Assembly (NCBI GenBank): GCA_003970805.2
Contig: CP051152.1
Location: 2,480,001 to 2,544,000 of the forward strand
Reading direction: 5' to 3'
Length of the DNA: 64,000 bases
Origin: Undibacterium piscinae
GTDB taxonomy: Bacteria > Pseudomonadota > Gammaproteobacteria > Burkholderiales > Burkholderiaceae_D
Below, in pieces: positions 1 through 9,352 of this stretch (its first letter is position 1; each line of letters begins with the position of its first letter). The notes under the pieces are model-generated. The model made no database searches, was not told the DNA's origin, and was given only the letters and a program-made list of their open reading frames with translations. A program made the translations under genes and the position numbers.

Positions 1-1
1 G

Positions 2-109
2 TTTGCTCAAGAGTTGCTAAACCATGGCTTCGAGGAGGTCGAATTCGAGCGACTATCACTTGGTATCGTCGCGATACACAGCGCGCGCAAACCACGCAAG
101 AGGCCTTAA
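2..109 (+). CDS. C-terminal end of a UbiE-like SAM methyltransferase (partial)
   Basis: The frame starting at base 2 is open from the window edge to a TAA at 107-109 and gives about 35 residues. It contains GFEEVEFERLSLGIVAIH followed by a basic ARKPRKRP tail. This resembles the last strand and tail of class I methyltransferases of the UbiE/MenG group (GF..V....L..GIVALH...KP). Only the C-terminus is visible, so the substrate cannot be judged. A REP-like repeat begins 10 bases after the stop. Confidence 0.5.
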   Translation, partial: FAQELLNHGFEEVEFERLSLGIVAIHSARKPRKRP

Positions 110-118
110 CAAAGCGCG

Positions 119-228
119 GTCGGCTGGGTTAAAGCTTCATCAACCCAGCAAGAACATGGTCACAATGAACAGCGGCAAATTGAAATTGTCGGCTAGATGT
201 GGATAGGGATACTGGGCTGACCAGCTAG
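119..228. repeat. REP-pair repeat, family 1, diverged copy
   Basis: The left end is GTCGGCTGGGTT, then AACCCAGC after a short loop; the right end is CTGGGCTGACCAGCTAG. The interior matches the copies at 646-721, 1191-1306 and 1450-1565. Each end can fold into its own hairpin and the two ends are inverted relative to each other. In intact copies the outer tetranucleotide is GTAG (CTAC at the right end). Confidence 0.75.
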
Positions 229-253
229 TGATTTATCAAGAGGAGAAATGCGT

Positions 254-628
254 ATGACACCGACAGAATTGATGAGAGAGTGGGTCGCCAGGTTCAATGC
301 AGCAGACATACAAGGCTTGGCGGAGATGTACGCGGAAGACGCTGTTAATGAGCAGGCCGTTCTTGCTGAACCTTTGGTAGGCCGCTCGGCAATCCGCAAA
401 TTGCTTGAGGTCGATTTCGCTCGAGCAAAGATGGTGTGTATCGAAGAGCGTATCTATGAGTGCGGAGATACTGCGATTCTTCAATGGCGAGACCCACTCG
501 GTTTGAAAGGTTGCGGGTTCTTCCAGTTTAGGGATGAAAAAATCTGCCATCAGAAGGGATATTTTGATCAACTATCGTTCTTTAAAGCGCAGGGTTTACC
601 GGTTCCGCATGACTATCTCAATTCCTAA
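254..628 (+). CDS. NTF2/SnoaL-like fold protein
   Basis: About 124 residues with the layout of a SnoaL-like cone-fold domain: an N-terminal helix with W.ARFNAAD, then LAEMYAEDAVN, then GRSAIR, then strands ending GCGFFQFRDEKICHQKGYFD. This family covers ester cyclases, isomerases and many proteins of unknown role, so no reaction is assigned. An ATG also exists at 248, but AGGAG at 241-245 is only 2 bases from it and 8 bases from the ATG at 254, so 254 is preferred. Repeats lie on both sides. The gene is probably expressed alone. Confidence 0.7.
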   Translation: MTPTELMREWVARFNAADIQGLAEMYAEDAVNEQAVLAEPLVGRSAIRKLLEVDFARAKMVCIEERIYECGDTAILQWRDPLGLKGCGFFQFRDEKICHQKGYFDQLSFFKAQGLPVPHDYLNS

Positions 629-645
629 GCACAACGCAACACACA

Positions 646-721
646 ACAACAAAGAGCAGCAGCAAATTAAAATTGTCGGCTAAATGTGGATAGGAATGCT
701 GGGCTTACTAGCCCAGCCTAC
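646..721. repeat. REP-pair repeat, family 1, right part only
   Basis: The interior (CAACAAAGAGCAGC...) and intact right end GCTGGGC-TTACTA-GCCCAGCCTAC are present. The left GTAG hairpin is missing. It lies between the SnoaL-like and SRPBCC genes. Confidence 0.75.
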
Positions 722-781
722 GAGTTACGCCGCACACCCATTTACTTTCAAACATAGTTGTCAACCACAAGGAGTAAGACC

Positions 782-1204
782 ATGAAAATTTCGGTAGAAA
801 CCATCGTCAAAGCGCCCATCGCCAAAGTCTGGAGCGCTTACACCACGCCGGACGACATCAAGCAATGGAATGCGGCTTCTGATGATTGGCACACGACCCA
901 AGCCAGCGTCGATTTGCGTGCCGGTGGGGCGTTTTCATCGCGCATGGAGGCCAAAGACGGTAGCTTCGGTTTTGACTTCGCAGGTACCTATACCAAGATC
1001 GTGCCTCACGAGCTAATCGAGTATACCTTCGGCGACCGTACTGGGGTAGTCGAATTCATAGAGAACGAACTTGGCGTCAAGCTACGCGTCAGCTTCGACG
1101 CCGAAACCGAGCATCTGGTGGAACAACAACGTCAAGGATGGCAAGCTATCTTAGATAATTTTGCCAGACACGTTGAAGCCAAACAACCCGGTAGGCTGGG
1201 TTAA
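782..1204 (+). CDS. SRPBCC/AHSA1-type domain protein
   Basis: About 140 residues starting MKISVETIVKAPIAKVWSAYT, with PDDIKQWNAASDDWH and GGAFSSRMEAKDGS, and a C-terminal helix QRQGWQAILDNFARHVE. This is the AHSA1-like START/Bet v1 fold, which binds hydrophobic ligands; the substrate is unknown. AAGGAG at 769-774 sits 7 bases before the ATG at 782; the frame also runs back to a TTG at 758, which has no ribosome site. The last residues (GRLG) and the stop codon lie inside the repeat that starts at 1191, so the native C-terminus may have been replaced. Confidence 0.75.
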   Translation: MKISVETIVKAPIAKVWSAYTTPDDIKQWNAASDDWHTTQASVDLRAGGAFSSRMEAKDGSFGFDFAGTYTKIVPHELIEYTFGDRTGVVEFIENELGVKLRVSFDAETEHLVEQQRQGWQAILDNFARHVEAKQPGRLG

Positions 1205-1306
1205 AGCTTCATCAACCCAGCATGCACATGGCAACAAAGAGCAGCTGCTAATTGAAATTATCGACTGAATGTGGGAAGGGATGCTGGGCTTACTAGCCCA
1301 GCCTAC
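1191..1306. repeat. REP-pair repeat, family 1, complete
   Basis: Begins GTAGGCTGGGTT with AACCCAGC closing the first hairpin, and ends GCTGGGC-TTACTA-GCCCAGCCTAC. It is nearly identical to the copy at 1450-1565. It overlaps the end of the SRPBCC gene and provides its TAA. Confidence 0.85.
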
Positions 1307-1323
1307 GAACTGCACTACAAAGC

Positions 1324-1449
1324 TTATTTATCGAAAAGTGCTTTTGCGTACGAATAGCTTGCAGCAGCATTGTCGAGGCTTGGCATTAACGACTGCCGGG
1401 TAATTCCCAGATCGAAGAGTCTGCGTAATAACTCATCAGCTTCAGCGCG
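1324..1449 (-). pseudogene. 3' fragment of a gene, possibly FRG-domain
   Basis: The minus strand between two family 1 repeats is open for about 41 codons and ends in TAA at 1324-1326. It reads AEADELLRRLFDLGITRQSL...PSLDN...FDK. The pattern 'L...LGI.R.SL.P.LD' resembles the C-terminus of FRG-domain proteins, but the match is weak. There is no start: the frame runs straight into the repeat at 1450. I read it as the tail of a gene whose 5' part was lost at the repeat. Confidence 0.35.
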
Positions 1450-1565
1450 GTAGGCTGGGTTAAAGCTTCATCAACCCAGCATGCACATGGCAACAAAGAG
1501 CAGTCGCAAATTGAAATTATCGGCTAGATGTGGAAAGGGATGCTGGGCTGAATAACCCAGCCTAC
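1450..1565. repeat. REP-pair repeat, family 1, complete
   Basis: GTAGGCTGGGTT...AACCCAGC at the left, GCTGGGCTGAATAACCCAGCCTAC at the right, same interior as the copy at 1191-1306. The two copies are in the same orientation about 145 bases apart, bracketing the gene fragment at 1324-1449. Confidence 0.85.
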
Positions 1566-1695
1566 GGGCTGTAACCGTTAGGTGTTGTCAGGCATGTGGT
1601 CGCTCTTGCCATTACACGCGTAAAACTGTCGAAATATTTTACACACGCACGCAATAAAAAAGATAAGCTATTGATTTATAACATATTTCTATGAG

Positions 1696-1711
1696 TGGCA
1701 TAATAATTGCT
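1696..1711 (+). promoter_or_regulatory. Sigma-54 (RpoN) promoter for the PEP-CTERM gene
   Basis: TGGCATA-ATAA-TTGCT matches the consensus TGGCAYR-N4-TTGCW at every defined position. The GG and GC elements are separated by the required 10 bases. The predicted start site is near 1722, about 30 bases before the ATG at 1754. RpoN and the PrsK/PrsR system have been linked to PEP-CTERM gene expression in other proteobacteria, which fits the gene downstream. Confidence 0.75.
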
Positions 1712-1753
1712 TATATTGAAACTTCTAAATCTCACTATTTTAAAGTCTCATAA

Positions 1754-2374
1754 ATGAAAAATTCCAAACTTATTTCTATCATTTTAATGGCTGCGTTATC
1801 CTCTATTTTGATGACAGCGAACGCTTCCCAAATCACCCAAGCAGAATATGATGCTGCGTCCAACTTGGTTAACTTTAATACGATTGGAGACGGTACTTTA
1901 GTATCAACACAATACACTGCTAATGGCGTTACGTTCAGTGGTCAAATCGTTGGACAGACAAGTGGTGATGGCGTTTTTTCATCGACCTCAGCGAACACTT
2001 ACTATGCACCTAACCGCACTGATACATGGGGGGCTAAATTCTCCAGCACAGTTAGCTCTGTTGGTTTCTATGCAGAATATTGGCAGCAAGATGTGATCAC
2101 TTTAGGTGTCTATAACAACAACGTACTTTTAGGCACGTACAATTTTAACAAGCCAAACGATGATATCTACTCCACCTATATGATCGGTGTCACGGATAGC
2201 AATGCGTTTGATGAAATTCGTTTCTCAATCTCAGGGAGCTCCAATCATTTCTTCAACATGGATAACTTCAAATTTCAAACAGCGACGCAACAAAATGTTC
2301 CAGAACCAACATCGATCGCAATGTTTGGCCTTGGCCTCGTTGCTTTAGCATATCTCCGTCGTAAATCTGCATAA
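1754..2374 (+). CDS. PEP-CTERM sorting domain protein
   Basis: A 206-residue exported protein. Residues 1 to about 24 are a signal peptide (MKNSKLISIILMAALSSILM then TANA). The middle is a beta-rich domain (FNTIGDGT, YTANGVTFSG, VGFYAEYWQQDVITLGVYN) of the kind found in many PEP-CTERM surface proteins. The C-terminus carries the sorting signal: VPEPTS, a hydrophobic stretch, then LRRKSA. Such proteins are processed by exosortase (EpsH/Xrt) and linked to exopolysaccharide; no exosortase gene is in this window. Its 5' leader follows a consensus sigma-54 promoter and a strong terminator follows at 2389, so it is a single-gene unit. The gene is more AT-rich than its neighbours. Confidence 0.9.
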   Translation: MKNSKLISIILMAALSSILMTANASQITQAEYDAASNLVNFNTIGDGTLVSTQYTANGVTFSGQIVGQTSGDGVFSSTSANTYYAPNRTDTWGAKFSSTVSSVGFYAEYWQQDVITLGVYNNNVLLGTYNFNKPNDDIYSTYMIGVTDSNAFDEIRFSISGSSNHFFNMDNFKFQTATQQNVPEPTSIAMFGLGLVALAYLRRKSA

Positions 2375-2388
2375 GCATACTTCTCGGT

Positions 2389-2421
2389 AAAAAAGCCACC
2401 TGTTCTAAGGTGGCTTTTTTT
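2389..2421 (+). terminator. Rho-independent terminator after the PEP-CTERM gene
   Basis: Perfect 12-base arms AAAAAAGCCACC / GGTGGCTTTTTT around an 8-base loop, followed by a T-rich run. Confidence 0.9.
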
Positions 2422-2710
2422 GTTTGTTGTTTGCGTTAGTTGAGATTTGACCTGCACTCCCAATCATGGCGAATGCAATAGACCCTTTAAGGTACATAGC
2501 AATTAGCGATAGTGCACGCCGTTTGATTATGGAACGGTGCGATTTAAAAACTATTTGCTTACCGGCGCAGTTGAATTTGATGGAGTGGCGGGGAATCGAC
2601 TCGGTCGTGGGCGCTAGGACATGAATGTCCCCTTTTTCGGCGCGCTAAAGCACGCAAAAAGCCTGGTTGCCGGGCGTAATGCCCTTCAGCAAGCGTAGCG
2701 TGCGTAAATC
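2422..2710. other. Intergenic, no supported gene
   Basis: A 52-codon open frame exists on the plus strand (ATG at 2466 to TGA at 2624), but it has no ribosome binding site and no recognisable sequence, so I do not call it. The stretch may be relic DNA. Confidence 0.4.
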
Positions 2711-2802
2711 GTAGGGTGCGCCATGCGCACCACGCACACCATTAATCGCCAATAATTTCCAGCTTTTGATTTTGAGTCATTGGTGCGCATGGCGCACCCT
2801 AC
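2711..2802. repeat. REP-pair repeat, family 2 (GTAGGGTGCGCC type)
   Basis: Left unit: GTAG then hairpin GGTGCGC-CAT-GCGCACC. Right unit: GGTGCGC-ATG-GCGCACC then CTAC. The two units are inverted and about 50 bases apart. A second copy lies at 61855-61923. Confidence 0.85.
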
Positions 2803-2882
2803 AAATGTGAACGCACTATGCCAGTAAGGCGTCATGGGCTTCGTCTATTTTGTATTTAAAATCGCAGCGCCTGCCTGCCAAT

Positions 2883-3872
2883 TCAAGCCCGGCCAGCCAG
2901 CAATCCCTGTACCAGCGCTAGTAAGGCGGCTTGTTCGGCTGCCGGGCTGAACAAGGGGGCGCGTTGCGTGCATGCCTGGACGATTTCTTGATAGTAGCCG
3001 TGCTGCAGTTCCTGGTCCTGGCGGCAGCGTTGTAGTAAGGCGGCGAGTCCGGCGGCATCGTCTAGCTCAAAATAGCCTGGGTAATTTTCGCCTAGCATGC
3101 CGAGATTGCCGGGGATGCGTGAGGCCAGTACCGGAGTGCCGCTACAGACTGCCTCCAGCACCACATGCGCGCCGCCCTCGATGCGGCTACTGTGTACCAA
3201 GACATGCGCATGCTGGATATGCCTGAGCGTGCGACTGTGCGATTGACTACCTAACCAGCGGTAATGCGGATACTGGCTGGCACAGGCTTGCGCTTGCGCG
3301 CCCAACTCTGGCTCTAGTGCCGCCCCGATATGATCAATGAAAATGTCAGACTGGGCGGCAAGTAGCGCGGCAGCGGCGAACAGGGTTTGCGGTGATTTTT
3401 CGGCGCGCAGATGGCCGACCATCAGGGCGCGTAAGTGCTGCGGCGTTTTCTGTGCCGGGGCGCGGCTGGCACTCGATTGGAAGATCACCTGGGCTTTATG
3501 GCGCAACTCTGGCGGCAAGGCATCCGGCCCGCGTTCTTGCAACACCACCAGTGCTTGCGCGTAACGCAGCGAGGCTTGCGCCGCCGGGTCGCTGAGTATG
3601 TCGCGGTATAAGTCGGTGCCGGTCAACACCAGGCCCAGGCCGGGCGCATCCGCAGTAACGCTTAGTCTGTGCGCCCACCGCGCAATCGAGCTGGCCGAAC
3701 GGCGCGCATGCAGGGCCAGCAAGACTTCGGCTGGCTCACCGTCCCATTCTTGCGCGATCTTGGTCTGATAGTAAGGGCTGAGCATCTGCGACCAGCGCCA
3801 GGCGGTCTGCCAATTGCCGTTATTCGCCGCGGCCAGGGCCGGGCTGAGTATGAGTACGCGTGGCTGTTTCAT
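2883..3872 (-). CDS. senB: SenB-like selenosugar synthase (GT4-type glycosyltransferase)
   Basis: 329 residues from the ATG at 3872 (the frame stays open to 3944). The N-terminus has RVLILSPALAAANNGNWQTA, then AQEWDGEPAEVLLALHARRS and LTGTDLYRD; these are hallmarks of the family once named TIGR04348 and now SenB of selenoneine biosynthesis. The C-terminal half is a GT-B/GT4 donor domain with the EX7E motif (IEGGAHVVLEAV) and a GTPVLAS loop. SenB joins selenophosphate to a UDP-sugar to make a selenosugar. In known sen operons senA and senC (selD-like) are adjacent; neither is visible here. The divergent neighbours are an ABC importer of the putative selenate type, which supports a selenium role. 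Assignment is from motif recall; a related sugar transferase is the alternative. Confidence 0.7.
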   Translation of the reverse strand: MKQPRVLILSPALAAANNGNWQTAWRWSQMLSPYYQTKIAQEWDGEPAEVLLALHARRSASSIARWAHRLSVTADAPGLGLVLTGTDLYRDILSDPAAQASLRYAQALVVLQERGPDALPPELRHKAQVIFQSSASRAPAQKTPQHLRALMVGHLRAEKSPQTLFAAAALLAAQSDIFIDHIGAALEPELGAQAQACASQYPHYRWLGSQSHSRTLRHIQHAHVLVHSSRIEGGAHVVLEAVCSGTPVLASRIPGNLGMLGENYPGYFELDDAAGLAALLQRCRQDQELQHGYYQEIVQACTQRAPLFSPAAEQAALLALVQGLLAGRA

Positions 3873-4033
3873 AACCAGCAGTGTAAGGCATAGGCAAAAA
3901 ATTTTGATAAATGTGTGGCCAAAGCTGTGGCAAATTCTGCGCAATAGTCTGCGCTGTCACGTGCAAATGGCGTTGATTTCGGGTCTAATATACAATTCGC
4001 CCCCCGTCATTCCCTTTTCACTGAGGATATCCC

Positions 4034-4900
4034 ATGTTTAAATTGTCTGCCACGCGTGCCCTTGCTGCCGCCCTTAGCTTTAGCTTGCTGAGTTTTACTG
4101 GTCTGTTACACGCGCAGGCGGTCTTTAAAGTCACCGCCATCCCGGATGAATCGCCAACTGAACTAGCGCGTAAAGCCGCGCCTCTGGTCAAATATCTGGA
4201 AAAGACCTTGGGCATGAAGGTCGAATTTACCCCGGTGACTGACTACGCCGCCTCGGTAGAGGCGCTGGCCAACAAGCAGGTTGATCTGGCCTGGTACGGT
4301 GGTTTTACTTTTGTGCAAGCCAGTGTGCGCTCGGGCGGCAAGGTGATCCCGCTGGTGCAGCGTGAAGAAGATGCTAAATTTCGCTCGGTCTTCATCACTA
4401 GCGACCCTGCTATCAAAACGCTGGCTGATCTGAAGGGCAAGAACGTCAGCTTCGGTTCGCAGTCCAGCACTTCCGGCCATCTGATGCCACGTAGCTTTTT
4501 ACTGCAAGCCAATATCGATCCGGATAAAGATTTTAAACGCGTGGCTTACTCCGGTGCACATGATGCGACCATCGCTGCGGTAGTGGCGGGCAAGGTCGAT
4601 GCTGGTGCTTTGAATATTTCGGTGTGGGAGAAATTTGTCGCCGACGGTAAAGTCGACACGAATAAAGTGCGCGTGTTTTACACCACGCCAGGGTTTTATG
4701 ATTACAACTGGACGGTACACGCCGACATGCCAGCGGCACAACGCGAAAAATTGACTAAGGCTTTCTTGAGCCTGGATCGCGCTAGCCCAGAAGGCAAAGA
4801 AATTTTAGAGTTGCAACGTGCCACCCGCTTCATCCCTACCAAAGCTGAAAATTACAAGGGCATAGAACAAGCGGCACATAGCGCTGGTTTGCTCAAGTAA
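4034..4900 (+). CDS. PhnD-family substrate-binding protein, putative selenate ABC transporter
   Basis: 288 residues. Signal peptide to about residue 28 (LLHAQA). The mature part begins FKVTAIPDESPTELARKAAP, followed by YLEKTLGMKVEFTPVTDYAA and DLAWYGGFTFVQA. This is the phosphonate-binding-like type 2 periplasmic fold, and closest by eye to the subgroup annotated as putative selenate-binding protein (TIGR04553 from memory) rather than classical PhnD. GGATATCCC precedes the ATG. It is first in a tight four-gene operon (gaps of 7, -10 and 2 bases) with an ATPase and two permeases, and divergent from senB. The ligand is inferred, not shown. Confidence 0.8.
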   Translation: MFKLSATRALAAALSFSLLSFTGLLHAQAVFKVTAIPDESPTELARKAAPLVKYLEKTLGMKVEFTPVTDYAASVEALANKQVDLAWYGGFTFVQASVRSGGKVIPLVQREEDAKFRSVFITSDPAIKTLADLKGKNVSFGSQSSTSGHLMPRSFLLQANIDPDKDFKRVAYSGAHDATIAAVVAGKVDAGALNISVWEKFVADGKVDTNKVRVFYTTPGFYDYNWTVHADMPAAQREKLTKAFLSLDRASPEGKEILELQRATRFIPTKAENYKGIEQAAHSAGLLK

Positions 4901-4907
4901 GCTAAGC

Positions 4908-5741
4908 ATGAAGTTAGATTTACGCGCAGTCTCGGGCCGGCATCCGGCCGCCAAGCCGGATGCCGCGCCCGCCTTGCGTGAACTCAGCCTGAGTTTGCGC
5001 TCTGGCGAACAGCTTGCCATCATCGGCCCCTCGGGGGCTGGCAAGACCACGCTCTTGCATTTGATGGCGTGTGCGCTACAGCCATCGCAGGGCAGTCTGC
5101 AACTGGACGATAGCGATCCCTGGCAACTCTCGCGCAGCGCCTTGCAAAAGCTGCGTGGCCAGCTGTTTTTAGCACCACAGGTGCCGCCCTTGCCACCGCG
5201 CCAAAGAGTGGTGACGGCGGTGCTGGCCGGGCGTCTGCCGCATGAAAATATCTGGGCGAGTCTGCGCAGTCTGTTTTATCCGCAAGACATTCCACGCGCC
5301 GAACGCGCGCTGGCCAGCTTTGATCTGAGCGATAAATTATTTGAACGGGTCGACCGACTCTCAGGCGGCGAACGTCAGCGCGTCGGCCTGGCGCGTGCGC
5401 TGCTGTCTGAAGCCACGCTGTTGCTGGTCGATGAGCCACTGTCGGCGCTCGATCCGCAGCGCGGCGAGCAGGCCATAGTTGCACTGACCGCCGCCGCCAG
5501 TGCGCGCACCGCAACACTGGTAGCCAGTCTGCATCATGTAGAGATGGCGCTGACGCATTTTCCGCGCATCGTCGGTTTGCGCGATGGTGCCTTGTTCTTT
5601 GATCTGCCTGCCGCTGAAGTCAGCCCACAAATTTTGCAGGCGCTGTATGCGCAAAAACTGCATGAACTGAGCGGCCCTGCCCTGCCCACTGACGAGCAAT
5701 TCCCAGGCGCGCCGGTACCAGTGGTGATGTTGTGCCGTTGA
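4908..5741 (+). CDS. ABC transporter ATPase, PhnC-like
   Basis: 277 residues. Walker A GPSGAGKT at 40-47, Q-loop glutamine near 91, signature LSGGERQ at 151-157, Walker B LLLVDE at 171-176 with D-loop SALD, and the switch histidine in SLHH near 209-210. It powers import through the two PhnE-like permeases that follow. It starts 7 bases after the binding-protein gene and its 3' end overlaps the next start. The C-terminal 40 residues past the switch region are longer than the core domain needs. Confidence 0.85.
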   Translation: MKLDLRAVSGRHPAAKPDAAPALRELSLSLRSGEQLAIIGPSGAGKTTLLHLMACALQPSQGSLQLDDSDPWQLSRSALQKLRGQLFLAPQVPPLPPRQRVVTAVLAGRLPHENIWASLRSLFYPQDIPRAERALASFDLSDKLFERVDRLSGGERQRVGLARALLSEATLLLVDEPLSALDPQRGEQAIVALTAAASARTATLVASLHHVEMALTHFPRIVGLRDGALFFDLPAAEVSPQILQALYAQKLHELSGPALPTDEQFPGAPVPVVMLCR

Positions 5742-6571
5742 CCTCAGCAATGCCTGAGCCAGCGCTGCGTGATCCGGCCTGGCGCGGGCGGCTGTTCTGG
5801 GCGCTGGCTAGTCTGGCGCTGTTGTGGCCAACTTTAGTCCTGACCGAATTTAAACCCTGGATCTTGCTAGAGCCGGATGCCTTGAAACCGGCCTGGAATT
5901 TTATCAGCGCGTTTTTTCCGCCACGGTCTGATCCCGAATTTTTACTCTTACTGGCGCGGGAAACCTGGCGCACCGTGGCGATGGCAACTGCTGGTATGAG
6001 CCTAGCCCTGCTGCTGGCGCTACCCTTATCACTGCTGTCGGTGCGGGTCTTGTCGCTGTCGGCACTCACTGGCCGTATGGCGCTGCTACCGGCCATACTG
6101 CGGCAATTGGTGCGCTGGACCCTGATGGTGCTGCGCAGCGTTCCTGAGCTGGTCTGGGCGCTGGTGTTTGTACGGGTGGTGGGCTTGGGGCCGACCTCGG
6201 GCGTACTGGCCATCGCACTGACCTACGGCGGCATGCTGGGCAAGGTGTACGCCGATATTCTCGAAAGCAGCGATGCGCATGCCAGCAGCAGCCTGATGCG
6301 CAATGGCGCGGGTCGCCTGCAAACTTTTTTCTATGCGCTACTGCCGCAAAATGCCGCCGAGCTGACCAGCTACACCGTGTACCGCTGGGAATGCGCGATA
6401 CGCTCCAGCGCAGTGCTGGGTTTTGTCGGCGCTGGCGGTCTGGGGCAATTGATGGATAGTTCCATGAAGATGTTTAATGGCGCGGAAGTGGCTAGCATCT
6501 TGCTGGTGTTCATGGCGCTAGTCTGGCTGGCCGACCGCATCAGCGCCGCCTTACGCAAAATTTTGGCATAA
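5732..6571 (+). CDS. phnE: PhnE-like ABC permease 1
   Basis: About 279 residues from a GTG at 5732 that overlaps the ATPase gene; an ATG at 5750 is the alternative and neither has a clear ribosome site. Several membrane segments are evident. The permease loop reads SYTVYRWECAIRSSAVLGFV followed by GAGGLGQ, the PhnE-type cytoplasmic contact motif. Family members form the channel of phosphonate-like importers. The paralogue directly downstream suggests that the channel is a heterodimer. Confidence 0.85.
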   Translation: MPLTSAMPEPALRDPAWRGRLFWALASLALLWPTLVLTEFKPWILLEPDALKPAWNFISAFFPPRSDPEFLLLLARETWRTVAMATAGMSLALLLALPLSLLSVRVLSLSALTGRMALLPAILRQLVRWTLMVLRSVPELVWALVFVRVVGLGPTSGVLAIALTYGGMLGKVYADILESSDAHASSSLMRNGAGRLQTFFYALLPQNAAELTSYTVYRWECAIRSSAVLGFVGAGGLGQLMDSSMKMFNGAEVASILLVFMALVWLADRISAALRKILA

Positions 6572-6573
6572 AC

Positions 6574-7422
6574 ATGCAAGCTCCTCAGCCACCACCGACC
6601 AAACAAGCAAGCACCCCAGCGACCACCCAATTGCCGCCCAAGCTGTTTAACGCGCGTTGTCTGTCGTGCTGGTTAGTCTTGGGCGTCGCGCTGCTGGTGC
6701 TGGCCAGCTTTACTACCCTCAATCTGCAATGGGCGCAGTTTTTCTCCTGGGATGCGATTAGCCGCATGGGACGCTTTGTGGGAGAACTAATGCATCCCGA
6801 AAGCAGCTCCGCTTTTCTGCACAAGCTAGCGCTGGCGACCCTAGAAACTCTGGCGATGTCGGCACTCGGTACCTTCATCGCGCTGATACTCGGCGTGCTG
6901 CTGGCACTACCGGCCAGCAAGGCGCATGCGCAAGACCCGGCGCGCTGGCGTGGCCCGGCGCGTTTGCTGCTGAATGCCCTACGCAGCACGCCGGAACTGG
7001 TGTGGGCTACCTTACTCTTGATTGCCGCTGGTCTCGGCCCGTTTGCCGGGACTCTGGCGCTAGGTCTGCATACGGCTGGCGTGTTGGGCCGCCTGTTTGC
7101 CGAAGCCATAGAAAATGCGCCGCCAGAACCCGGCTTTGCACTACGTCTGCGTGGCATCTCTGAAACCCGGATATTTTTGTACGCCAGCTTGCCGCAAGTT
7201 TTGCCGCAACTACTCAGTTACACCCTGTACCGCTGGGAAAATAATATCCGCGCCGCCGCCGTGCTAGGGGTGGTCGGTGCCGGCGGCCTGGGCCAGATGC
7301 TGGCCTTCCACATGGGCCTGTTCCAGATGGGCGAAACCAGCAGCGTCTTGCTGGCCATGATGCTGCTGGTAGCGCTGGTCGATGCGCTCAGCTATCTGAT
7401 ACGCAGTGCTTTATCGCGCTGA
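6574..7422 (+). CDS. phnE: PhnE-like ABC permease 2
   Basis: 282 residues, starting 2 bases after the first permease stops. It begins with a polar, Pro/Thr-rich tail before the first membrane segment (CWLVLGVALLVLASF). The contact loop SYTLYRWENNIRAAAVLGVV then GAGGLGQ matches that of its neighbour. It ends the operon and its last 12 bases overlap the convergent gene at 7411. Translation is likely coupled with the upstream permease. Confidence 0.85.
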   Translation: MQAPQPPPTKQASTPATTQLPPKLFNARCLSCWLVLGVALLVLASFTTLNLQWAQFFSWDAISRMGRFVGELMHPESSSAFLHKLALATLETLAMSALGTFIALILGVLLALPASKAHAQDPARWRGPARLLLNALRSTPELVWATLLLIAAGLGPFAGTLALGLHTAGVLGRLFAEAIENAPPEPGFALRLRGISETRIFLYASLPQVLPQLLSYTLYRWENNIRAAAVLGVVGAGGLGQMLAFHMGLFQMGETSSVLLAMMLLVALVDALSYLIRSALSR

Positions 7423-7749
7423 AACGGCCAGCTTGCCTGGCGCAGCCACTGCGGCCTCAGGCTTGGCCGAGCTACTGGACTGCGGCTTTGGGCTGCCAGG
7501 GCGTTGCGCTTCTTGCCCCAGTTGCTTCTGGCGCGCGGCATTGAGCTCTTCAATGGTAGGAGGCTTACGACTATCCGGCTGGCATGGGCCTTCCTGATAA
7601 TGCACAGCCCCTTTGACGCTGCACTTGTACACCGGAGTTGCCACGGCAGACGGCAACAGCAGCTGAGCGAGGGCGAATGCCAGGACCATTGATTTAACCA
7701 TGGGTAAAGCGAGCAGATGAGTGAAGCGCAATTTGCGATAAGCGTGCAT
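7411..7749 (-). CDS. DUF4124-like secreted protein
   Basis: A short exported protein with a hydrophobic leader (SMVLAFALAQLLLPSAVA) followed by VYKCSVKGAVHYQEGPC, the cysteine pair and 'Y.C...G...Y.D.PC' pattern of DUF4124. The C-terminal half is low-complexity (Gln, Pro, Ser, Ala). Starts at 7749 (MHAYRKL, with AGG upstream) or 7701 (MVKSMVL) both place the leader at the N-terminus; the frame stays open to 7845. It converges on and slightly overlaps permease 2. Function unknown; probably periplasmic. Confidence 0.65.
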   Translation of the reverse strand: MHAYRKLRFTHLLALPMVKSMVLAFALAQLLLPSAVATPVYKCSVKGAVHYQEGPCQPDSRKPPTIEELNAARQKQLGQEAQRPGSPKPQSSSSAKPEAAVAAPGKLAVSAR

Positions 7750-7993
7750 GAAGTAAAGCCTAAGAGATAGATCCGTCGCCGTGATCGGTATAGCGGAAGT
7801 GTGAAACAGTTTTAAGGTAAATCGCTCAAAACGCGCTTGCAGCATGGTTTTTCAAAGCCCTAGTGAAGATTTAATCGCTTAAAAAAAACCATAAAAAACC
7901 TTATTGCAATTGCTTTTCATTCTATCAATAAATTAGTTAATTTGAAATTGTTTTAATTTCTTCTTGATCTGCGCCTAGGCTTGATGACTTGCG

Positions 7994-8071
7994 ATACTCC
8001 CCCTAGTGTTTTTCTATTGCCCAATGAATATATGCGCGAATGGCAGGTTTTATTGAAAAAATAGGGGGTAT
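7994..8071. repeat. 78-bp inverted-repeat element, copy A
   Basis: Begins ATACTCCCCCTAGTG and ends TAGGGGGTAT. The interior GCCCAATGAATATATG is shared with the copies at 10790-10867 and 15068-15145, all exactly 78 bp. The right terminal repeat of this copy has lost one base of symmetry. The rest of the 7846-8195 gap is AT-rich with no gene. Confidence 0.75.
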
Positions 8072-8107
8072 ATTCTTTGGCTGGCTTTTGATGTGGGCTT
8101 TAAGCGC

Positions 8108-8140
8108 TGTAGATTGTAATAGCGCGGTGTATTGCGCACC
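8108..8140. repeat. Single REP hairpin, family 3 (half element)
   Basis: GTAGATTGTAATAGCGC-GGTGTATTGCGCACC: the left unit only of the family seen complete at 8705-8783 and 14197-14275. The family's flanking AATGCGCCTTACGG follows. Confidence 0.6.
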
Positions 8141-8195
8141 ACTTAATGCGCCTTACGGCTTTGAAGCTTAATCTGATCAGTCACGCAAGGCGCAG

Positions 8196-8648
8196 CTACT
8201 TTGATAAGAGCGTATTCTGATCGTGTATTAATCTCCAGCCGCCACGCTCCTTGTTGAATACCAAGCTGAGCAAGTAGTGCATCTTGTATTCGACTCCAGC
8301 CTCGTCCAGGTCCGCGTATTTAACATCAAGCACGGCGACGCCAGCGCTGGCATTGGATGTCGCGCTTAATATTTGATATGACCACGACCAGTCCCGATCA
8401 GCCAGCCAGGCTTGAGTTGATTTCTTGAACTCTGCGCTGGACTTCGAAAGTCGGCCATTAGGTAAGATGAAAGTCAAAGTATCAGCCTCAGTTAAGGTCG
8501 ACTCAAAAGCGACCCAATCTCTGTTTTCAATCGCTGCAAGATGTGTCCTAAGTGCCGCATCAAAGCTGCTCGTGTTGGCGACTGCAGACAGTTGCCATAA
8601 CAATGGCAGTATCAAGGCAAGGCGACGAATACTGCTTGATGTTTTCAT
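8196..8648 (-). CDS. Secreted SnoaL/NTF2-like protein
   Basis: 150 residues with a signal peptide (LALILPLLWQLSAVANT) and a SnoaL/DUF4440-like domain: FDAALRTHLAAIENRDW, then FESTLTEADTLTFILPNG, and C-terminal strands ending GGWRLIHDQNTLL. The typical C-terminal 'W.I...H.S' element is present in altered form. The role is unknown; export suggests a periplasmic ligand-binding function. REP repeats lie just past the stop and before the start, so it is a one-gene unit. Confidence 0.7.
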   Translation of the reverse strand: MKTSSSIRRLALILPLLWQLSAVANTSSFDAALRTHLAAIENRDWVAFESTLTEADTLTFILPNGRLSKSSAEFKKSTQAWLADRDWSWSYQILSATSNASAGVAVLDVKYADLDEAGVEYKMHYLLSLVFNKERGGWRLIHDQNTLLSK

Positions 8649-8704
8649 GTGATATCCGGAAAAACTGAGATGTCTGTTGATGGCTAGGAAGGTCCGTCAG
8701 CGCT

Positions 8705-8783
8705 GTAGGGTGTAATAGCGCAGCGTATTACAGCATTTTAAGCATCCCATGCGGCGCAATACGCTACGCTATTGACGCCCTAC
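8705..8783. repeat. REP-pair repeat, family 3
   Basis: Left: GTAG-GGTGTAATAGCGCAGCGTATTAC; right: GCGCAATACGCTACGCTATT...GCCCTAC. It matches the copy at 14197-14275 closely. A tail resembling the right end of family 4 (CCCCCCCTACCAGGCTT) follows at about 8806-8821, so two families abut here. Confidence 0.8.
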
Positions 8784-8881
8784 CCAATGCGCCATACGGC
8801 CTTGCCCCCCCTACCAGGCTTGTTGACAATCCGTGTTGAATGCAAGCTTAGGCATTTCGACCTTGGCTTCTTAAGATTCCT

Positions 8882-9352
8882 TTATTTGGCATTGACGGGA
8901 CCCTTGGTCTTGGCGTCGGAGTCGTACCAGTAGTCTTCACCCTTGAGGCGGCGATCTCCCTGAATGGTGTAGGTGATGAATCCTTGCTTGAACACCAGCG
9001 CGCCATCGCTGCGTTTGGCTTTCACTAGCTTGCCGTTCACCTTGACTTGTTCTTGGTTGTTGATCTGGATCTCCGCCACAGTAGCGCCAGTGGGCCCAAC
9101 CGCCACCCAATTGCCGGCATATGGTGGCAGATTGGCCTGCGCGCTCTGAACTGCGCTTGCGGCGGGAGTCTCCGTGACGACGTTCGCCTTGGCGTTTTCT
9201 GCTTTGCTCTTGTTGATGTCACAGCCTTGCATCTCGCTCATTTGGGTGCAACCGGAACGTTCAAGCTTCTGACGGTATTTTGCGTCGATTGCATGGGCGG
9301 GCGTATTTACCAACAGCAGGCTGGTAATGACGACAATGAAATTTTTCTTCAT
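8882..9352 (-). CDS. Small secreted protein of unknown function
   Basis: 156 residues from the ATG at 9352. Signal peptide FIVVITSLLLVNTPAHA, then a linker with two cysteines (SGCTQMSEMQGCDINKSK) and a C-terminal beta-rich domain (YAGNWVAVGPTGATVAEIQI, KVNGKLVKAKRSDGALVFKQ, TYTIQGDRRLKGEDYWYD). No family recognised; the strand pattern suggests a small lipocalin-like or META-like barrel. The frame runs back to 9637 but that extension translates a repeat, so the start at 9352 is preferred. Confidence 0.6.
   Translation of the reverse strand: MKKNFIVVITSLLLVNTPAHAIDAKYRQKLERSGCTQMSEMQGCDINKSKAENAKANVVTETPAASAVQSAQANLPPYAGNWVAVGPTGATVAEIQINNQEQVKVNGKLVKAKRSDGALVFKQGFITYTIQGDRRLKGEDYWYDSDAKTKGPVNAK

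Follow-up and report, generated by a model that had tools for sequence, protein, structure and literature searches.

A senB gene and a divergent ABC importer

Within a 64,000-nucleotide stretch of the Undibacterium piscinae genome (positions 2,480,001-2,544,000 of a single contig of 4.19 Mb; hereafter, the window), a minus-strand gene for selenosugar synthesis lies head-to-head with a four-gene ATP-binding cassette (ABC) importer operon on the plus strand (4034-7422). The features of this locus are as follows:

2883..3872, minus strand: senB, selenosugar synthase (Se-glycosyltransferase); ATG at 3872, stop at 2883; matches to TIGR04348 and to PDB sequences
3983..3989, plus strand: GTCTAAT, a -10-like element about 45 bases upstream of the binding-protein start; putative promoter function
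4034..4900, plus strand: periplasmic substrate-binding protein (SBP) of the TIGR04553 type; predicted ligand selenite
4908..5741, plus strand: ABC ATPase, PhnC-like; TIGR02315 185.1 bits, under the cut-off of 266.1
5732..6571, plus strand: permease 1, PhnE-like; TIGR01097 201.7 bits, under the cut-off of 216.7
6574..7422, plus strand: permease 2, PhnE-like; TIGR01097 256.7 bits, above the cut-off of 216.7

By sequence, the minus-strand gene is SenB. Its product scores 427.1 bits against TIGR04348 (cut-off 300), compared to 92.7 bits for the next-best model, which rules out an ordinary GT4 enzyme, and it matches the SenB-type PDB sequences 8jjn, 8jjq, 8fbx and 8k5u with E-values of 9e-105 to 1e-107. 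The original prediction, made from the sequence alone, had thus named the gene correctly, and its coordinates and motifs stand as well, although translation might instead begin at a TTG at 3944, giving a longer protein. In Variovorax paradoxus SenB, donor choice and catalysis have been assigned to N20, T23, K158 and E231 (PMC10891094). When the two proteins are aligned, all of the equivalents (N20, T23, K159 and E232) are kept in the window SenB, as is the EGGAHV motif of the family (residues 232-237). With these residues in place, the enzyme would be expected to carry out the family function, the synthesis of a selenosugar from selenophosphate and a UDP-sugar.

The SBP passes TIGR04553, a model named "putative selenate", at 418.9 bits (cut-off 250) and fails the PhnD model TIGR03431 at 170.4 bits (cut-off 261.1), which rules out the SBP of a canonical PhnD phosphonate importer. 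A selenate-type importer with one ATPase and two PhnE-like permeases is also what had been predicted. In NCBIfam, TIGR04553 is of the kind hypoth_equivalog, i.e. the importer model is itself an NCBI hypothesis, and to our knowledge a dedicated selenium transporter of this kind has so far not been demonstrated in bacteria.

The intergenic region between the divergent genes spans 161 bases (3873-4033). Its GTCTAAT element is invariant in six aligned intergenic regions (the window and loci L014 and L016-L019), with L045, also head-to-head, outside the alignment. A sigma-70 scan of 2700-7700 gave 2 sites compared to 1.2 expected, none of them inside the divergent region, and Rfam returned nothing over its gathering score in window positions 1-9000.

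The importer and selenium genes in other genomes

In a survey of 195 genomes of the bacterium's own family, all 103 genomes with an importer over the cut-off carry selD, and such an importer is missing from all 20 selD-negative genomes. Among 397 genomes drawn from across the phylum, selD was found in 41 of 42 importer genomes versus 110 of 355 without an importer (Fisher p 4e-18), and, counted by genus, a selD genome occurs in 24 of 24 importer genera versus 74 of 208 others (p 2e-10); the survey genomes are related, so these values overstate independence and speak less strongly for selenium than they appear to, but the pattern still spans 24 genera. The link between importer and selenium is therefore stronger than the original prediction could tell.

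Physical linkage is found as well, including where SenB is missing. Outside the family, selD lies within 20 kb of the importer in 16 of the 40 genomes for which selD was located. For 33 of the 49 SenB-negative importer genomes inside the family a selD position is listed, at 20 kb or less in 17 and about one gene away in 11. We then compared 48 neighbourhoods centred on the SBP, from 20 SenB-negative genomes of the family and 28 of the 42 importer genomes of the phylum survey. Among their 22 largest neighbour gene families, the labelled ones that are not ABC components comprise SelD, alone or fused (11 loci), SelU (7), EgtD (6) and SenB (4); most of those without a label are confined to the own genus, seem to be overlapping frames, or are present in 4 or 5 loci. 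In the phylum-survey neighbourhoods, the importer stands beside selD and selU-like genes (L154, L161, L162), beside sen genes and egtD (L145, L146, L147, L160, L163) or beside senB and a SelD fusion (L144), and four distant SenBs that were tested pass TIGR04348 at 375-389 bits. L160 holds a senA-like gene, selD, the importer, egtD and senB, while L161 and L162 hold selU, selD and the importer; one importer type thus stands beside two selenium uses. It is on this linkage to selD, sen and selU genes that the case for selenium, as read from gene content, rests.

The pairing of SenB with the importer is likewise common among relatives. The importer is present in 54 of the 75 family genomes that have SenB, compared to 49 of the 120 SenB-negative ones (Fisher p 3e-5). 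In 43 of the 54 genomes with both, the two share a contig; they are at most 20 kb apart in 39 genomes and at most 10 kb apart in 27. Additionally, among the best 80 of 557 SenB loci, taken from named genomes, a TIGR04553-like SBP (at least 55% identity) lies near SenB in 32; for the 34 loci represented by 20 kb or more of sequence, the count is 16. The head-to-head arrangement of the window recurs in only 6 of the 80, 5 of them named Comamonadaceae. The conserved pairing that had been proposed as a check is therefore borne out for the association and not for the exact arrangement. Of the 80 sen loci, 32 carry SelD fused to a pyridine nucleotide-disulfide oxidoreductase part, which matched TIGR03169 in the single fusion tested.

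Several observations weigh against a dedicated selenium importer that works with SenB. We know of no measured ligand for any selenium-linked TIGR04553 member. The importer is missing from 21 of the 75 SenB genomes and so cannot be required throughout, and G146 carries SenB without selD. In 24 of the 40 importer genomes outside the family, selD is not within 20 kb. G331 has an importer-like SBP (326.6 bits) and no selD match, and selD-negative G092 has an SBP match at 238 bits, under the cut-off. In eight importer genomes of the own genus, no sen or sel gene was found within 17 kb around the importer. Finally, the closest solved relatives of the SBP bind phosphite and, more weakly, phosphate (PMC5700983, PMC10284923).

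The binding pocket and its predicted ligand

Closest among the solved structures are the PhnD1 proteins of Synechococcus (7S6G) and Prochlorococcus (5LQ5); the phosphite-binding protein PtxB comes next. Over the aligned stretches, the two PhnD1 proteins score 337.6 and 300.8 bits, respectively, against TIGR04553, both above its cut-off of 250; since the model accepts phosphite binders, its name alone is no proof of selenium. We chose 11 pocket positions for comparison from the published PhnD1 structure (PMC5700983), and the SBP (I36, D38, Y71, F116, S145, T146, S147, H176, N194, D223 and Y224) is identical to 5LQ5 and 7S6G at all 11. The resulting signature, IDYFSTSHNDY, is present in 83 of 99 SBP sequences, including the window SBP and both PhnD1, after rows with stops or fewer than 215 residues had been removed. 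The remainder comprises nine sequences with a coordinated three-position swap, five that differ singly or otherwise, and the two PtxB (LDYYSTSHSQY), which depart from the window SBP at 4 of 11 positions.

In a tree of 81 of the 99 sequences, the branch between the two PtxB and the other 79 rows is supported at 100/100. The pocket differences and this split exclude PtxB as the identity of the window SBP. PhnD1 itself clusters with importers that come from further families of the class and from further classes of the phylum (100/96). The selenium-linked loci L144, L145 and L165 belong to this cluster, where the tool warns of long branches. The question of whether the SBP falls inside phosphonate or phosphite PhnD clades, raised with the original prediction, thus has a divided answer: its own model takes in phosphite-binding PhnD1, while the protein fails the PhnD model and lies apart from PtxB.

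Two sets of pocket variants were also observed. The nine swapped SBPs (L045, L047, L059, L061, L062, L083, L087, L089 and L163) have E-D-N in place of D-N-D, possibly a specificity variant. The cap residue is altered in the SBP of G331, the exception lacking selD (L166). In G414 (L165), which shares its genus with G331 and belongs to another class of the phylum, selD is accompanied by a tandem pair of binding proteins, one of which also has its cap residue changed.

The PhnD1 pocket binds its ligand by three oxygens, with a tyrosine as a cap over the fourth position (PMC5700983). Selenite carries three oxygens plus a lone pair and selenate carries four oxygens, so selenite would be the best-fitting selenium anion for such a pocket. 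The pocket therefore suggests selenite over selenate and, together with the gene partners, indicates that the importer probably brings selenite into the cell.

Selenate transport, as implied by the name of the NCBI model, we consider rather unlikely, though deserving of attention. Selenate is a natural form of selenium, and PhnD1 of Synechococcus MITS9220 tolerates phosphate at 7.4 uM, only 11-fold weaker than phosphite (PMC10284923), so four oxygens may fit. However, Prochlorococcus PhnD binds phosphite at 0.051 uM and phosphate at 182 uM, about 3500-fold weaker (PMC5700983), and in a pocket that matches at all 11 compared positions, tyrosine cap included, a four-oxygen anion should fit badly.

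Less probable still is a phosphite or phosphate importer like PhnD1 that sits near selenium genes by chance. Both PhnD1 pass TIGR04553, and across reported values PhnD1 binds phosphite at 0.05-2.8 uM (PMC5700983, PMC10284923), but chance would leave the confinement of the importer to selD genomes (103/103 and 41/42) unaccounted for, along with labelled recurrent neighbours that, ABC components aside, are all SelD, SelU, EgtD or SenB. Moreover, several of the PhnD1-bearing picocyanobacteria that were tested do not grow on phosphite (PMC10284923). The same source calls PhnDCE paradoxical, as it is present in all picocyanobacteria and binds phosphite; it reports that PhnDCE expression and abundance are unaffected by phosphate concentration, citing an earlier study of induction in WH8102. 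The role of PhnD1 is disputed in the literature. No word beginning 'selen' occurs in the main text of PMC10284923. Prochlorococcus and Synechococcus are reported to have a selD homologue with an NADH-dehydrogenase-like extension, plus ybbB (PMC1273633).

These points lead us to propose, tentatively and at somewhat less than even odds, that the entire TIGR04553/PhnD1 family, including picocyanobacterial PhnD1CE, serves as a dedicated selenite importer. Under the tyrosine cap, the selenite lone pair would then sit where phosphite has its P-H bond. If this is true, PhnD1CE would be the selenium importer of Prochlorococcus and Synechococcus, which would explain the PhnD1 paradox.

A probable dispersed selenoneine pathway and its counterparts

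Neither SenA, SelD nor the SelD fusion has a match within the window (tblastn, E 1e-8, matches of at least 60 bits shown), as had been predicted for senA and a selD-like senC. The further description of the locus as one without SenA fails at the level of the genome: an intact senA (412 residues, 472 bits against a cut-off of 420, with the TIGR04373 signature) lies 0.43 Mb away at C1:2912621-2913859, and selD (440 bits) lies 1.05 Mb away at C1:1428118-1429170, so the suggestion that the partners are elsewhere was correct. egtB and egtD are found together at C1:3072550-3074897 (3.07 Mb), with EgtB at 514 bits and EgtD at 384 bits, both over the cut-off, and SelU is over the cut-off at 0.45 Mb; SelA has no match in the genome at E 0.001. 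The selenoneine gene set (SenA, SenB, selenophosphate synthase and EgtD) is thus complete, with senA at 2.91, senB at 2.48 and selD at 1.43 Mb instead of in one senABC cluster.

Because SenA, SenB, SelD and EgtD with its hercynine are all provided for, selenoneine is the expected product, and we judge, with a probability of about 0.8, that the locus provides the uptake and selenosugar half of a selenoneine pathway whose genes are dispersed. In this pathway, the SBP would capture a periplasmic selenium oxyanion, which is most likely selenite, and the ATPase and two permeases would import it. Selenite would be reduced to selenide by the cell, and, by family function, SelD would make selenophosphate, SenB would join its selenium to a UDP-sugar to form the selenosugar, and SenA would move the selenium onto EgtD-made hercynine to yield selenoneine. 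SelU could draw on the same selenophosphate for tRNA 2-selenouridine.

That SenB serves a different selenium end product, as the original prediction had suggested, is improbable. In its favour, senA lies outside the cluster, the second SenA-like gene described below is frame-broken beside selD, and a few SenB genomes have no listed SenA. In the family survey, where the SenA list covers 92 of the 93 genomes with SenA over the cut-off, four of the 75 SenB genomes have no listed SenA (G004, G084, G088 and G134), and a SenA-like gene close to senB in G004 and G084 leaves two. The intact SenA, EgtD and SelD of this genome nevertheless leave another product unsupported, and its SenA is 62-65% identical to those of five sen loci (L013-L017). 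Of the 71 survey genomes that have senA as well as senB, 8 (the present genome among them) show no senA within 3 kb of senB, and in 4 of these senA is on another contig. Uptake of another small oxyanion (arsenite, arsenate or sulfite) is very improbable, as the arsenic-binding proteins ArrX and Aio are distant relatives of the SBP, at 71 and 45 bits compared to 200 and 165 for the two PhnD1, and arsenic genes are not among the recurrent neighbour families as labelled by a short query set, with no model search for them.

Other SenA-like genes and transporters were seen alongside this pathway. A second SenA-like gene (L093:9263-10300, C1:1429263-1430300), divergent from selD, has a frame change near L093:10240, and the typical C-terminus runs on in another frame to about L093:10457; the break is either a real loss or an assembly error, and this gene was rejected as the pathway SenA, the intact SenA being a different gene. 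G107, of the same genus, has an intact relative of the broken gene beside selD (L143:8129-9295, 66% identical; 381 bits on the tested stretch and 397 in the survey, cut-off 420), and neither SenB nor the importer was found there in the family survey. By its gene content it appears to be an orphan selD-linked enzyme. SenA over the cut-off without SenB was observed in 21 genomes of the family, and a SenA-like enzyme may therefore work with a different selenium donor or on a different substrate. A fused binding-protein/permease gene (L095:5816-7432) lies divergent from the intact senA; its binding part matches ProX and the ergothioneine transporter EgtUC chains about equally; relatives occur in 6 of the 80 sen loci (L042, L052, L058, L071, L078 and L092), and it is possibly a selenoneine or ergothioneine importer.

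Sequence comparisons make a horizontal origin of the locus likely. The window SBP falls in a 17-row clade (100/98). Comamonadaceae account by name for 8 of the other 16 rows, and its four closest neighbours come from Polaromonas or Rhodoferax. The eight own-genus SBPs are placed elsewhere, and SenB is absent from all 12 sampled genomes of the genus. At 58.9%, the G+C content of the locus exceeds the 53.2% of the remaining window; among 238 sliding windows of equal length, which may overlap the locus, a single one reaches this value. An SBP 95% identical to the window copy is named from Undibacterium sp. Ren11W, which suggests presence in the genus. For SenB, the closest other sequence among the 120 matches listed reaches 71% identity; the SBP and SenB may therefore differ in local history. 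Eight of the 12 genomes carry a native importer away from sen and sel genes (L109-L116), and in seven of these eight loci the same stretch holds what we take, from its motif, to be a diguanylate cyclase-like gene.

SenB and the selenoneine pathway were already known, as was the importer model as an NCBI hypothesis. What appears to be new is the quantified dependence of the importer on selD, the coverage of PhnD1 by the selenate model and the reading of the ligand as selenite, for which we found no prior statement in a search that left subscription journals mostly outside. The linkage provides a specific candidate for a bacterial selenium importer and bears also on the PhnD1 paradox in picocyanobacteria.

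The sen cluster (senABC) of V. paradoxus was reportedly described by Kayrouz in 2022. Like that bacterium, U. piscinae encodes a SenB of the same family, SenA, selenophosphate synthase and EgtD, but its genes occupy separate chromosomal sites, and senB is paired with an importer instead of with senA and senC. A commentary on the sen cluster is available (PMC9814287). The PtxB phosphite importer shares with the window SBP the binding-protein family, the STS-H motif and the capping tyrosine, but differs in its signature and stands apart on the tree. PhnD1CE (5LQ5, 7S6G) is closer, with all 11 compared pocket positions identical and a place on the same side of the PtxB branch; it is called a phosphite or phosphate transporter, whereas the operon in the window contains a pair of permease genes and shows linkage to senB. 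Lastly, the SBP clearly belongs to TIGR04553, but that model covers phosphite binders, and the pocket argues for selenite as the likely ligand.

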